64,000 bases of DNA, from the NCBI GenBank assembly GCA_001777915.1, contig MFFN01000004.1, forward strand, positions 227,632-291,631, in the 5' to 3' direction. A model generated the notes under the pieces. The model ran no database searches, was not told the origin of the DNA, and saw only the letters and a program-made list of their open reading frames with translations. The position numbers and the translations under genes were made by a program. Below are positions 16,902-61,162 of the stretch, piece by piece; within the stretch, counting starts at the first letter, position 1, and each line of letters opens with the position of its first letter. The DNA is from Candidatus Edwardsbacteria bacterium RifOxyA12_full_54_48. GTDB taxonomy: Bacteria; Edwardsbacteria; AC1; EtOH8.

Positions 16902-16943
16902 GACCTCACCCCACCCCTCTCCAAAGGCATTTGGAGAGGGGGT
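16902..16943. repeat. Palindromic intergenic element, copy 1
   Basis: The flank GACCTCACCCC is followed by CCCTCTCCAAA-ggc-ATTTGGAGAGGG, a near-perfect palindrome. It lies just before the TauE promoter. Confidence 0.75.
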
Positions 16944-17802: not shown

Positions 17803-18169
17803 CGCAGAGTTCAACAAACTGGTGGAGCAGGCGGTGGACGACCTGCCGCAGGACTTCCAGGACAAGCTGGAGAATATTGCCATCACGGTGGAGAACTATC
17901 CCTCCCCGGCGGTGCTGAGATCGCTGGAGGAACGGACCGGGAAACATTCCCTGCTGGGGGTGTATATCGGCATTCCCTACAACAAGCGCCCGGCCTATCA
18001 TATTTCGGGCAAACTGCCGGACCGGATAGAACTGTACCAGAAGAACATCGAGTCCATCTGCCGCACACCGCAGGAGATAGTGGAGCAGATCAAGGAGACC
18101 ATCATCCACGAGGTGGGGCACTATTTCGGCCTGAGCGAAGATGACCTGGAAAGATTACAGGACCTATGA
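17795..18169 (+). CDS. Minimal zincin-like metallopeptidase family protein
   Basis: 124 aa. The C-terminal half has the zinc site His-Glu-x-x-His (HEVGHYFGLSEDDL), with Asp/Glu after the second His as in the minimal MMP-like (DUF1025-type) family. The N-terminal half contains NYPSP and LLGVYIGIPY, also typical. These are small soluble proteins of unknown substrate, often adjacent to unrelated genes. It overlaps the permease by 8 nt and the next gene by 4 nt (ATGA), forming a three-gene transcript. Confidence 0.88.
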   Translation: MDSAEFNKLVEQAVDDLPQDFQDKLENIAITVENYPSPAVLRSLEERTGKHSLLGVYIGIPYNKRPAYHISGKLPDRIELYQKNIESICRTPQEIVEQIKETIIHEVGHYFGLSEDDLERLQDL

Positions 18170-19575
18170 ATAAAATTATTTATGTAATGATAATTTGGGC
18201 ATCTCTTACGGCCAGCACCCATGCTGGCGATTACAAATGTTCCGTTGTTGGTAATGCCAGTGGCTATGGCTTGGTAATCGCCAAGGGCCGTAATGATGGT
18301 ATAAACAGATTATATGCAACGGGGGGGGTCCCAGCAGAATTTACCTGGAATGGAAGTGGTTGGAACAGAGTATTGTTTTCAAGCACTATTGCAAGTGCAT
18401 ACTCTATTGCTGCGGGCGACGGGAGGAATGATGGGGTTATTAGGATTTACACTGGCGGTGGTAGCAGCAGGTTACGTGAATGGAGCTTTAACGGTAGTAC
18501 TTGGGATAGCATATTGATAGATGACCGTACTGGTTCTGATATAAGAAGCGTTTGTTTAGGGGATATAAAAAACGATGATTCCATAAGAGTAGTTGCCGGT
18601 GGTAATGACAGCACGACCATAGCTTATACCTACCAAAATGGGAGTGGAACTTGGAAAAAGGACACCGTGGGTATTAAAAGGGGTATAGTTCAGGACATTG
18701 TTATTGGAAACGGCCGCAACGATGATACAAACAGGGTATACTCTAGCGGAGATATTTTTTGGGTTGAATATACCTATAGAAGCAAATGGGACACAACCTA
18801 CCACTCACAAATGATTCCTACAACGGGATCTTTATTGTCGCCAGTAAAAAATGATGGCTTAATTCAATTATATATATCTGAGGACGGAGGGATAAGAGAT
18901 CTCCTGTGGTCAGGCGCACAATGGTTAAATGTTGATTCTGCTGCTTATGGTAGATATCCGTTTTCGGGTGATGGCCGCAATGACGGCAAACAAAGGTTAT
19001 ATGGTTTGAGTAGCAGTATGGTGGTAAATGATTCGATTTACAGCGATATCCGCGTTTTGGAATGGAGTTATGTTGACAGTATTTGGGTGAAAAATGTATT
19101 GGATACCATTGCCTTAAATTACGGTGTCAATTTTGACATGGCAGCCGGAGTAGTGGGCGATGCCCGGAATGATGGCAAAAATCGGGTATATGCTTTAAGC
19201 GAACTTGGTGTGATATATGAATGGGAGTGGGATGATTCGTTGAACGGTGTAGCGGCGGAGCCAGTTACAAGTGATAGAGTTTTCAGTTTACAGTTAAACC
19301 AAAATTATCCTAATCCCTTTAATCAGTCTACAGTTATCAGTTATCAGGCAACAGTGGACGGGCCGGTAAAACTTGCGGTTTACAACATCGCCGGGCAATT
19401 GGTAAAAACATTAATAAATGATCCCTCTCCTAATGCTTTAGGGGAGGGTGGGGTGGGGTCAATAACCTGGGACGGCCGGGACTACCAGGGCAAACCGGTC
19501 ACAAATGGGCTTTATTTCTACTGCCTGGAGGCCGGGGGAACCCGCCGGACAAAGAAAATGATCCTGCTGAAATGA
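18166..19575 (+). CDS. Secreted repeat protein with FlgD-like/T9SS-type C-terminal domain
   Basis: 469 aa. Signal peptide at 1-20 (IIYVMIIWASLTASTHAG). The body consists of about seven repeats of roughly 45 aa built around GxGRNDGxxRxYxxG and a W-N/S-x-x-W motif (for example GDGRNDGVIRIYTGGG and GDARNDGKNRVYA), like a tachylectin/FG-GAP-type beta propeller. The last 80 residues are a FlgD-like sorting domain: NQNYPNPFN, VYNIAGQLVKTL, ITWDGRDYQGKPV, GLYFYCLEAG, KKMILLK. A palindromic repeat is inserted in frame in this domain (19422-19460). A G8 tract (18321-18328) lies early in the gene. It is about 43% G+C, clearly below its neighbours, which suggests transfer or distinct selection. It starts by ATGA overlap with the upstream gene. 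Confidence 0.8.
   Translation: MNKIIYVMIIWASLTASTHAGDYKCSVVGNASGYGLVIAKGRNDGINRLYATGGVPAEFTWNGSGWNRVLFSSTIASAYSIAAGDGRNDGVIRIYTGGGSSRLREWSFNGSTWDSILIDDRTGSDIRSVCLGDIKNDDSIRVVAGGNDSTTIAYTYQNGSGTWKKDTVGIKRGIVQDIVIGNGRNDDTNRVYSSGDIFWVEYTYRSKWDTTYHSQMIPTTGSLLSPVKNDGLIQLYISEDGGIRDLLWSGAQWLNVDSAAYGRYPFSGDGRNDGKQRLYGLSSSMVVNDSIYSDIRVLEWSYVDSIWVKNVLDTIALNYGVNFDMAAGVVGDARNDGKNRVYALSELGVIYEWEWDDSLNGVAAEPVTSDRVFSLQLNQNYPNPFNQSTVISYQATVDGPVKLAVYNIAGQLVKTLINDPSPNALGEGGVGSITWDGRDYQGKPVTNGLYFYCLEAGGTRRTKKMILLK
19422..19460. repeat. Palindromic element, copy 2, in frame inside a coding sequence
   Basis: CCCTCTCCTAA-tgc-TTTAGGGGAGGG plus TGGGGTGGGGTC is the complement of the elements at 46049 and 51847. It adds about a dozen residues (PSPNALGEGGVGS) between the VKTLIND strand and the ITWDGRD strand of the C-terminal domain without breaking the frame. 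Confidence 0.85.
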
Positions 19576-26133: not shown

Positions 26134-26290
26134 TCAAAGGAGCATTTGTCTGAGTATAACCATCTTTTTGGTTCTGCTAAACAAGCTGGCCTTCAGCTGG
26201 TAAAAATAAATATCTTTGGATACTATGCGCCCCATATCATCGCGGTCGTTCCAAGTTATTGACCCTTTTCCCGCTTTCTCTTTGAAGAGA
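26134..26290 (-). pseudogene. Remnant of a FlgD-like/T9SS-type C-terminal domain
   Basis: Reading the minus strand into the stop at 26134-26136 gives EKAGKGSITWNDRDDMGR, then IVSKDIYFYQLKAS and RTKKMVILRQMLL. This matches the ends of the proteins at 18166, 34408 and 38579 (ITWDGRD, GVYFYRLEAG, KKMVMIK), with decayed key residues. Upstream the reading becomes meaningless and no signal peptide or start is found, so only the C-terminal about 50 codons of a lost secreted-protein gene remain. Confidence 0.7.
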
Positions 26291-26434
26291 AAGCTCCAAA
26301 GAGAACTGTCGCTGCACCGCTGCCCGGAAGTTTATGATATTCAGCTGCCTGAATGTCTTGACCACGAAACAAGGCACCCGCATGCAAAACATTCTTAACG
26401 GCAGCTTATGCCAGTCAGCAGCGCTGATGCGACC

Positions 26435-26502
26435 CGGACCTCTCCCTGCCTGCCGGCCTCCCTCCCCTCGAGGGGAGGGAAGGGGTGGGGTTGGTGCCCC
26501 GC
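26435..26502. repeat. Palindromic element, copy 3
   Basis: GACCTCTCCCTGCC flank, then CCCTCCCCTCGAGGGGAGGG, a 20-bp perfect palindromic core, then AAGGGGTGGGG. Same flank logic as the other copies, different core. Confidence 0.7.
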
Positions 26503-28658: not shown

Positions 28659-28749
28659 GACCTCACCCTTCCACTTCGATTGAAAAACAGTTTGTCTTCT
28701 CAGTGCAGGCTCTCTCCTAATGCTTTAGGAGAGAGGCAGGGGAGAGGTC
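28659..28749. repeat. Palindromic element, copy 4 (extended form), forming the end of nadA
   Basis: Outer GACCTCACCC flank at 28659 and the facing flank GAGGTC ending at 28749. The core CTCTCTCCTAA-tgc-TTTAGGAGAGAG is flanked by the extension TCAGTGCAGGCTCTC also seen at 44431-44528. On the minus strand the element supplies the last residues (TSPLPLS) and the TAA stop of nadA. Confidence 0.8.
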
Positions 28750-46048: not shown

Positions 46049-46086
46049 GACCCCACCCTTCCCTCCCCTAAAGCATTAGGAGAGGG
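46049..46086. repeat. Palindromic element, copy 6
   Basis: GACCCCACCCTTCC flank, then CTCCCCTAA-agc-ATTAGGAGAG core. Nearly identical in sequence to the copy at 51847 and to the complement of the in-frame copy at 19422. It follows the CorC-like stop by 2 nt. Confidence 0.85.
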
Positions 46087-46198
46087 AATTCTTTCACCAC
46101 TTCGCCAGTAATATAACGGTCAATCTCCATGCGGGCTCTGAGCAGGACATCATACACGGCAAGCCGAATAGGTGACGCAGAATAAAAAATATCTAATT

Positions 46199-50367: not shown

Positions 50368-51848
50368 ATAAATTGATCTCCCCCGCCATAGCGCCTCCGG
50401 TCCTGCAGGCCAAACGCATCGGACCGGTGATCTCCCCGGACCGCTCCCGGGTGTTGCTGCGGCCCTTCTATCCCGTCAGGAAAAGCATTGCCCGGAGGAT
50501 CGTGAACGGGATCATGACCCTTAGTGACGAAGCGGCGGCCCGATTGCTGGCATCGGTGTTGAGCGAGTTCAAAGACCGGCATACCAACGTTGAGCAGACC
50601 TTCCTCAACCGCTTCAGGCAGGTGCAGGCGTATCTGAAGGATAGGAAGGAGACCCCGCCGGAGAAACAGCTGCTGATCGGGGCCTACTTCTCGCATGAAT
50701 ATTCCCCGGAGTCGGCCGCCCTGTTCAATCCGTCCATCGTGCCTCATCCCGATCAGACCAAGCTTCCGGCGGGCTCGCTCCGTTTTGTGTTGAGCCTGCG
50801 GGCCACCGGCGAGGGGCACATCTCATCCATCACCTTCCGCACCGGCACCGTCAGCGCCAAACACAGCATCAAGCTCACGCCGCCGGTTCCCTTTGTGACG
50901 GAGCCGGAGCCCCTGACCAACGCGGTATACCAGAAGGATCTCTTTGCCCGCAAGCTCCAGGAGGCGGGCCTGCACAGCAACTTCTGCCGGCGGGTGGTGG
51001 ACCAGCTGCCCGGGGAATTCGTCCTGGACGACCTGCGCCGGATGCTGAAAGCGGAGCGGCGGAAAATGACCCCGGTCGACGCCCTGGCCGACCGGGCCTC
51101 CCAGGGCATCCTGCTGCTGGCCGAATCCAACTACCAGGTGCGGTTCGATCCCTCCAGCCATCTGGCCCAGCGGATCCTGTTCCCCTCGGTGCCCAGCCAG
51201 AGCAACGGCATCGAGGACGCCCGGTTCGTCATGTTCCGGGACGACGACGGCAGCATCACCTACTACGCCACCTACACCGCCTACGACGGCAAGATCACCC
51301 TGCCCCAGCTGCTGGAGACCGCCGACTTTATCCATTTCAAGTTCCTGACCCTCAACGGCCCGGCCGTCCAGAACAAGGGCATGGCCCTGTTCCCCCGCAA
51401 GATCGACGGGCGTTACGCCATGCTGTCGCGCCAGGACGACCAGAACATTTTATTGATGTACTCCGACAACATCCACTTTTGGCAGACTCCCAGGATGCTG
51501 CTGCAGCCGGCCCAGCCCTGGGAGATGGTCAAGATCGGCACCTGCGGCTCCCCCATAGAGACCGAGGCCGGCTGGCTGGTGCTGAGCCACGGGGTCGGGC
51601 CAATGCGGAAGTACTGCCTGGGGGCCTTCCTGCTGGATCTTAAGGACCCCTCGCGGGTGATCGGCCGCCTGCGCCAGCCGCTGTTGTCGCCCAACCAGGA
51701 CGAGCGCGAAGGCTATGTGCCCAATGTGGTATACACCTGCGGCTCTTTGCTGCACGGCCGGGAGCTGGTGATACCTTACGCCATGAGCGACTATGCCACC
51801 AACTTTGCCACCGTGCCGATAGACGACCTGCTGGCGGGGATAGAATGA
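50364..51848 (+). CDS. GH130-type glycoside phosphorylase/hydrolase
   Basis: 494 aa. C-terminal half has the GH130 five-bladed propeller features: NGIEDARFVMFRDDDG with the conserved Glu-Asp, YYATYTAYDG, KGMALFPRKIDGRYAMLSRQD and GCGSPPIETEAGW-like (here GTCGSPIETEAGWLVLSHGVG). GH130 enzymes phosphorolyse or hydrolyse beta-mannosides. About 200 N-terminal residues precede the propeller and are not assigned. It is coupled to the GT4 fusion by ATGA. Its stop TGA overlaps the first bases of a palindromic element. Confidence 0.85.
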   Translation: MNKLISPAIAPPVLQAKRIGPVISPDRSRVLLRPFYPVRKSIARRIVNGIMTLSDEAAARLLASVLSEFKDRHTNVEQTFLNRFRQVQAYLKDRKETPPEKQLLIGAYFSHEYSPESAALFNPSIVPHPDQTKLPAGSLRFVLSLRATGEGHISSITFRTGTVSAKHSIKLTPPVPFVTEPEPLTNAVYQKDLFARKLQEAGLHSNFCRRVVDQLPGEFVLDDLRRMLKAERRKMTPVDALADRASQGILLLAESNYQVRFDPSSHLAQRILFPSVPSQSNGIEDARFVMFRDDDGSITYYATYTAYDGKITLPQLLETADFIHFKFLTLNGPAVQNKGMALFPRKIDGRYAMLSRQDDQNILLMYSDNIHFWQTPRMLLQPAQPWEMVKIGTCGSPIETEAGWLVLSHGVGPMRKYCLGAFLLDLKDPSRVIGRLRQPLLSPNQDEREGYVPNVVYTCGSLLHGRELVIPYAMSDYATNFATVPIDDLLAGIE

Positions 51849-51885
51849 CCCCACCCTGCCCTCCCCTAACGCATTAGGAGAGGGA
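51847..51885. repeat. Palindromic element, copy 7, between GH130 stop and DUF5677 start
   Basis: GACCCCACCCTGCC flank starting inside the GH130 TGA stop; core CTCCCCTAA-cgc-ATTAGGAGAG. The right arm AGGAGAGGG (51876-51884) ends 3 nt before the ATG of the next gene and is its only ribosome-binding site. Confidence 0.85.
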
Positions 51886-53261: not shown

Positions 53262-54017
53262 ATGATCGAACGCACCGAAGCCATAATATTAAAGACCCAG
53301 AATTTTTCCGAGACCAGCCGCATCGTCAGCGCCTTCACCCGGCAGTTCGGCCGGATGAAGTTCATGGCCAAGGGCGCCCGCAAGCCAAAAAGCAGGTTCG
53401 GGGCTTCCTTCCAGCCCGGCGGGGTCTCCCAGATCGTCTTCTACCGCAGCCGCCACTCCGAGCTGCACACCGTCTCCGAGACCGACGTGGTCTGGGACCC
53501 CTCGGCCCTGGCCGAGGACGGCCGGATGAACCCGGCGGCGGTGGCCCTGGAGATGGGCTACAAACTCACCGCCTTGGAGTCGCCCAATATGGCCTTCTAC
53601 AAGAATCTTTCGGGATTTTTGCGGTCACTGCCATCCTCCGGGGAAAGCCCCAGCCAACTGCTGGGCTTTTTTCTGTCGGCCCTCAACAACCTGGGACACT
53701 CCCCCCGGCTGGATTCCTGCGTCAAATGCCGCCGGGAGCTTAAAAGCGGCGGGCCGGTCTTCTCGGTGACCGAGGGCGGATTCCTCTGCCCCCGCTGCCA
53801 TGCCCCGGAGGGGGAATGCATTATCCTGAAACCGACCCAATCCGCGGCCCTGTATCACTGGCACTCCACCGGAGAACTGTGCCAGATCGCCCCCCGCGAC
53901 AGCAAAGGGCTGATCGAGACCCTGACCGCCTTCGTCAACCACCACATATCGGGCCGGACCAAGCTGATCTGCGTAAAATATTTGGACCCCACCCCTGCTC
54001 CTCCCCTAACGCATTAG
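53262..54017 (+). CDS. recO: DNA repair protein RecO
   Basis: 251 aa. N-terminal OB fold (ERTEAIILKTQNFSETSRIVSAFTR; GARKPKSRFG), helical middle, and a zinc finger with CVKCRREL ... FLCPRCH. RecO loads RecA onto SSB-coated DNA with RecR/RecF. The last residues (DPTPAPPLTH) and the TAG stop are encoded by the palindromic element at 53985-54025, so the original C-terminus (about after VKYL) has been extended by about ten residues. Confidence 0.93.
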   Translation: MIERTEAIILKTQNFSETSRIVSAFTRQFGRMKFMAKGARKPKSRFGASFQPGGVSQIVFYRSRHSELHTVSETDVVWDPSALAEDGRMNPAAVALEMGYKLTALESPNMAFYKNLSGFLRSLPSSGESPSQLLGFFLSALNNLGHSPRLDSCVKCRRELKSGGPVFSVTEGGFLCPRCHAPEGECIILKPTQSAALYHWHSTGELCQIAPRDSKGLIETLTAFVNHHISGRTKLICVKYLDPTPAPPLTH

Positions 54018-54025
54018 GAGAGGGG
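53985..54025. repeat. Palindromic element, copy 9, encoding the end of recO
   Basis: GACCCCACCCCTGC flank and CTCCCCTAA-cgc-ATTAGGAGAGG core. TAG (54015-54017) in the core is the recO stop. Confidence 0.85.
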
Positions 54026-54168: not shown

Positions 54169-54206
54169 GACCTCACCCTACCCTCTCCAAATAAATTTGG
54201 AGAGGG
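54169..54206. repeat. Palindromic element, copy 11
   Basis: GACCTCACCCTACC flank and CTCTCCAAA-ta-AATTTGGAGAG core; near-identical to copy 1 at 16902. It ends 5 nt from the stop of the M3 peptidase gene (minus strand). Confidence 0.8.
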
Positions 54207-54211
54207 ATTTT

Positions 54212-61097: not shown

Positions 61098-61162
61098 GAC
61101 CTCTCCCTGTCTAACGACATCCCTCTCCTGATTAATCAGGAGAGGGATTAAGAGTGAGGCCT
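61098..61162. repeat. Palindromic element, copy 14, abutting infB stop
   Basis: GACCTCTCCCTGTC flank, CCCTCTCCTGATTAATCAGGAGAGGG core (26-bp perfect palindrome), AAGAGTGAGGCC end running into the infB stop TAG (61161-61163). Confidence 0.85.

Follow-up and report, generated by a model that had tools for sequence, protein, structure and literature searches.

An in-frame palindrome in the sorting domain of a secreted protein

The gene at positions 18166 to 19575 of the window (i.e., the whole 64,000-nt stretch of DNA analyzed here) carries a 39-nt palindromic sequence in the region encoding the C-terminal sorting domain of a secreted protein. The locus raises the question of whether this palindrome is a repeat element that entered the gene and is read as part of the protein and, if so, how it came to occupy this position. 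The features concerned are the following:

18166 to 19575, plus strand: ORF of 469 amino acids, a secreted repeat protein with recurring GRNDG motifs and a T9SS sorting domain at its end (profile matches, orthologues)
19306 to 19563, plus strand: T9SS type A / FlgD-Ig-like C-terminal sorting domain (TIGR04183, model fold match, SprA in genome)
19422 to 19460, minus strand: GACC-type palindromic element in the sorting-domain loop, predicted translation PSPNALGEGGVG(S), with its foot (GACCCCACCCC) facing the 3' end of the gene
19423 to 19448, no strand assigned: imperfect palindrome consisting of the hairpin stem and core TAATGCTTTA (stem pattern search)
19449 to 19460, minus strand: asymmetric foot of the element copy, reading GACCCCACCCCA on the minus strand (element alignment)

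The predicted product of ORF 18166-19575 matched the profile TIGR04183 at residues 381 to 466 (E = 3.6e-8; 33.3 bits; cut-off, 23), and a FlgD_ig match was also found. On the basis of the profile score above the cut-off, the fold, and the presence of the T9SS in the genome (the SprA translocon is encoded there, with a profile score over the cut-off), the region, described as a sorting domain in the preliminary description, is one of 79 T9SS sorting domains of this genome. An AlphaFold model of the domain (46-sequence alignment; pLDDT, 78.5) is a beta domain whose best PDB match is PorU of P. gingivalis (6za2). In the modeled piece, residues 49 to 58 (PSPNALGEGG; pLDDT, about 58) form a low-confidence turn between strands 41-48 and 59-64, which agrees with the loop between two strands suggested earlier. 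The ORF has orthologues in genomes G001 (69% identity) and G003 (47%), and in both of them the element is present in frame at the corresponding position.

The DNA of the copy (19422-19460; 39 nt) is TCCCTCTCCTAATGCTTTAGGGGAGGGTGGGGTGGGGTC and is 95% complementary to another copy at 46049-46087. It is divided into the codons CCC TCT CCT AAT GCT TTA GGG GAG GGT GGG GTG GGG TC(A), corresponding to P420 to G431 (and S432). The element-encoded peptide expected in the product is PSPNALGEGGVGS, and the stretch of the predicted product across the insert is LINDPSPNALGEGGVGSITWDGR. One of the three frames of this strand of the element is open, and it is the frame used; the other two meet TAG or TAA inside the core. 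The core CCT AAT GCT TTA had been said to avoid its own stops, and it does so in the sole stop-free frame of the strand. All six TAATGC-core copies in sorting domains likewise lie in the stop-free frame, and TCGA cores occur in two frames. In the mRNA sense, the 19422-19460 copy folds modestly (z = -1.9), and its MFE structure differs from a simple hairpin.

A dispersed family of hairpin elements

Oriented by the foot, the consensus of the element is GACC[CT]CACCC[CT]N-CCCTC[CT]CC-core-GGRGAGGG, and a second foot, inverted relative to the first (GGGTGAGGTC), is present in many copies. Cores are either of a long AT-rich type (TAANGCNTTA, AAANNNNTTT and similar) or of short types (GCATC, GCAGC, TCGA), and the copies catalogued span about 38 to 50 nt. 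The element is a dispersed REP-like (MITE-like) hairpin of this phylum with the ends GACC...GGTC and an interchangeable core. The stem pattern occurs eight times in the window (0.03 expected from shuffles). Genome-wide (2.74 Mb), 38 long-core copies were found versus 1 in the control, and a looser stem palindrome gave 84 matches versus 4. Together with the stop-free frame in ORF 18166-19575, this dispersal bears out the initial suggestion of a palindromic element inserted in frame inside a protein. Most copies lie in intergenic gaps or directly after stop codons, and no target sequence common to the genomic copies was found beside GACC. Other copies in the window are listed below; their coding context was scored by codon usage, which is a rough guide only and missed the AT-rich gene 18166-19575.

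16902 to 16941, plus strand: intergenic copy with core AAAGGCATTT; the site is empty in G001
26437 to 26495, no strand assigned: double-footed copy with core TCGAG (pattern search)
28712 to 28749, minus strand: intergenic copy adjoining a further foot at 28659 (pattern search)
46049 to 46087, plus strand: intergenic copy right behind a stop codon; the core is identical in related genomes (L121, L150)
51847 to 51885, plus strand: copy overlapping an ORF end (similarity, coding context)
53985 to 54025, plus strand: copy at a gene end; the orthologous G001 site has another core and foot
54169 to 54207, plus strand: intergenic copy with core AAATAAATTT (similarity, pattern)
61098 to 61147, plus strand: copy with double-foot remnants and core TGATTAATCA (similarity, pattern)

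Only one of 200 shuffles matched or exceeded the folding of the intergenic copy at 16902. Adjoining the double-footed TCGAG element, the minus strand at 26166-26292 contains a decayed sorting-domain remnant (GSITWNDRDDMGR...TKKMVILR).

Orthologous intergenic sites, compared by a strict collinear search in place of a fuzzy search that was too noisy, exhibited both presence and absence of the element as well as core differences. A clean insertion of ~50 nt was found at C1:192608 relative to L125, with no target duplication at this one usable empty site. The footed form was present in all 10 family members searched (2 to 48 copies each) and absent from the controls. Among 51 genomes outside the family, it was found only in G018 (14 copies) and G027 (1 copy). 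Given that other distant genomes have at most one copy, the 14 copies of G018 may reflect a transfer. Those family members that bear a name are Candidatus Edwardsbacteria, and most public genomes sharing the TAANGCNTTA element are listed under this name or as UBP2.

One sorting-domain loop is occupied in eight species

Sorting domains were extracted by profile, since regex-based extraction missed many. The loop (measured from GQLVKTL to W) is 13 residues long in 75 of 82 element-free domains and 18 to 24 residues long in occupied ones; that of ORF 18166-19575 has 18 residues. The net gain is therefore five residues, not the roughly twelve first estimated, as little of the native turn (e.g., VNExxPAGYY) is left. 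In three domains (L118, L153, and L154), the element is followed by VPKxGS, which is perhaps a remnant of that turn.

A search for the palindrome followed by TGGRAYGG detected occupied loops in G000, G001, G003, G005, G006, G008, and G009, with no control hit in the family. A second pattern search added loops in G001 and G002; L094 also counted toward the eighth species. At least 19 domains of eight species are thus occupied at one loop by elements with four or more different cores (three domains in G000, six in G001, two in G002, three in G003, one in G005, one in G006, two in G008, and one in G009), which shows that the insertion is real and old. The occupation is not a single event; the preliminary description had missed this recurrence, the loss of most of the native turn, and the tRNA synthetase site described below. 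The added DNA of every extra-long loop examined belonged to the same palindromic family, and the same extra loop built from different, nonrepeat DNA was not seen. In L094 (G002:C5:526250-526552), further sequence interrupts the palindrome in the occupied loop, and the frame is apparently still open.

In 16 of the 19 occupied domains, the reading frame continues through the element; of the other three, two are broken and one is a chimera. The broken ones (C4:755701 of this genome, frameshifted directly after the element, and G003:C48, with a stop just upstream) indicate that tolerance of the element is not universal. In the chimera (G006:C14:176090; L104 / L112), the sorting domain stands after the element and unrelated sequence before it, which is possibly the product of recombination at the element. 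In this genome, 76 of the 79 sorting domains are element free. By chance, 0.07 hits would be expected (84 copies, 79 loops of 30 bases, 2.74 Mb) versus the 3 seen, a comparison that is no test of independent insertions, since sorting domains are paralogous.

In a tree computed without the loop (70 columns), 11 occupied domains and no empty one fell in two neighboring groups plus one row, so that the occupied domains of this genus cluster. The occupied/empty label nevertheless needs seven changes overall on this tree, at least three of the changes being forced by well-supported branches; with 70 columns, the number of gains is uncertain. The comparison with homologues lacking the insert, as called for at the outset, was provided by one orthologous set, in which L203 (G001) is filled while L171, L202, and L204 (G000, G002, and G003) are empty. 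The filled L203 has the donor-type residues SVTW and the empty orthologues have QAAW or EVLW, a pattern that favors import of a loop cassette from some other sorting domain over a fresh insertion. In all occupied loops, the right end of the element is followed directly by a TCN codon and then by [IV][TP]W or a similar strand, and the left junction varies.

A second in-frame site in cysteinyl-tRNA synthetase

In G000, G001, G002, G003, and G006, the gene for cysteinyl-tRNA synthetase (CysRS; one match per genome) has an in-frame copy of the element at one and the same loop. The G000 locus (L226; G000:C3:138264-139670) has the insert TPGPSPEGRGE; the other loci are L227-L235. The cores differ (CGAG, TAAAGCATTA in both G001 and G003, CGATGGG, and TCGAG), and the elements share the spacer TTGAT/TGGAT/TTAAT. 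Another loop is present in G004, G005, and G007, and G009 has no element. The G008 loop is possibly a decayed form of the element. In G008 and G009, this loop contains a second short palindromic repeat, which was considered as a further element but proved not to be dispersed in the genome.

Origin and spread of the occupied loop

We estimate a probability of about 80% that a REP-like hairpin entered the sorting-domain loop in ancient times, was tolerated there, and spread by domain exchange while its cores turned over. An ancestor of the genus would have acquired the element in a beta-turn of a T9SS sorting domain, in the core's one stop-free frame, so that ribosomes would have read through it as PSP-NAL-GEG-(R/G)VGS. 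Since the turn is predicted to be surface exposed and length tolerant, the protein would have kept its signal, and selection would have had to preserve no more than the reading frame. The occupied loop may then have reached other secreted proteins via duplication or recombination of sorting domains, and the hairpin core may have been swapped with those of other family members, the site remaining unchanged. The element is probably translated and the protein probably sorted normally. Gene conversion is a candidate means of both spread and core exchange, and the first copy would have had a transposase-like origin. A broader formulation, in which cores are replaced at fixed sites (the sorting-domain loop, the CysRS loop, and some intergenic sites) while foot and site persist, together with spread through the secretome by domain exchange, is tentative and rather doubtful. 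The genomes compared here are metagenome assemblies.

Much of the same evidence can be turned toward repeated insertion by a site-preferring enzyme at the sorting-domain and CysRS loops. Close relatives differ at the same position in the core and in having one foot or two; this, the constant right end, and the three or more forced changes on the loop-free tree would all suit such a hot spot. However, the genomic copies have no common target sequence beside GACC, only the right junction is constant and the left one is variable, L203 came with its donor's SVT residues, and the CysRS elements have a common spacer; we therefore consider repeated insertion unlikely. Mobilization of the element by the REP-associated tyrosine transposase (RAYT) of the genome is harder still to sustain. 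Besides several IS200-like genes, the genome has one RAYT gene (NF047646; 128 bits), and insertion without target duplication, as seen at one site, is compatible with HuH enzymes. However, the RAYT gene is bracketed by inverted GTAGGCACAAATTC... repeats of the GTAG type, while the element ends in GACC, and no GACC element lies within 650 bases of any Y1 transposase. The RAYT, being paired with another repeat (GTAG), was rejected as the mobilizer, and none of the RAYT and IS200-type genes of the genome could be linked to the element.

Two further explanations were weighed. The hairpin might be kept for a role in DNA or RNA (mRNA stability, attenuation, or a cruciform), with the peptide as a by-product, and the location of most copies between genes or just past stop codons, positions from which a hairpin can affect the end of an mRNA, and the strong folding of the 16902 copy are consistent with this idea. 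The modest mRNA-sense fold of the copy under study and the 76 of 79 sorting domains that manage without an element make it very improbable for the loop. Natural loop variation, palindromic by chance, is scarcely credible: the position does correspond to a variable turn in FlgD-Ig-like domains, but the loop is otherwise near-constant at 13 residues, the 39-nt match to dispersed intergenic copies reaches 95%, and the 84 matches versus 4 in the control contradict it. Ancient entry followed by domain exchange thus remains our preferred reading.

Comparison with known palindromic repeats

The likeness to the palindromic elements of Rickettsia (RPEs) drawn in the preliminary description holds for the way of working (i.e., an in-frame palindromic insert in a tolerant loop) and fails for membership on account of length. 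RPEs are dispersed in and between genes and lie without loss of frame within unrelated proteins, conserved enzymes among them; an insert can occupy the same locus in orthologues, with an identity that may differ between them (RPE-4/6/7); classical RPEs are 100 to 150 bp long with a conserved ORF (PMC2229807, PMC3767692). The GACC element is also found in frame in protein genes (sorting domains and CysRS). However, it is only about 38 to 50 nt long and differs from RPEs, as these are described, in its GACC/GGTC end, its exchangeable core, and its recurrence in one domain family. It works like an RPE and is not one, and it is a further case of a kind of event already known from Rickettsia.

According to Di Nocera et al. 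(2013; PMC3733652), CGTC/GTAG REPs are hairpins of 20 to 40 bp with an unpaired tetranucleotide-type foot at one end, occur as monomers and inverted doubles, and lie mostly downstream of genes, with some inside ORFs; CGTC REPs have no dedicated transposase. The same study reports different REPs at about one recB site in two Xanthomonas species, and core differences therefore have a precedent as well. The GACC element shares the hairpin with a foot, the single and double forms, and the mostly extragenic location with the REPs as described there, its way of working agrees with that of the intragenic REPs, and it has the broad REP-like features of a 20- to 50-nt hairpin in many copies, mostly extragenic near gene ends. 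In contrast, its foot is GACC/ACCYC rather than GTAG, its copies do not flank a RAYT, and its end is GACC or GGTC rather than CGTC. Repeated occupation of a secretion-signal domain does not appear in the sections of that study consulted (PMC3733652). Double-footed copies resemble REPINs in being larger inverted pairs around one hairpin, but a cognate RAYT was not found for the GACC element and many copies are single footed (PMC3116915). The target-site duplication of a classical MITE is absent at the one clean empty site, a single usable case. A search of a limited literature collection retrieved no paper on the GACC element.

The GACC element adds a candidate phylum to the bacteria (Rickettsia and a few rich in REPs) from which palindromic inserts in reading frame are known. 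Both protein sites are clean natural experiments, since a secretion-signal loop is occupied in many instances and an essential tRNA synthetase holds, at a single position, cores that differ between sister species. They make in-place sequence change of REP-like repeats and the tolerance of T9SS signal loops testable.

Two minor observations concern the surroundings. The RAYT gene L020 (G000:C1:193950-194534) is flanked by inverted GTAGGCACAAATTCTATTTGTGCC repeats, and at the orthologous position of a relative (L125), a GACC element stands together with a different gene. In the window, a 300-nt direct repeat with 73% identity (850-1149 and 1907-2206) is likely a duplicated gene or domain.
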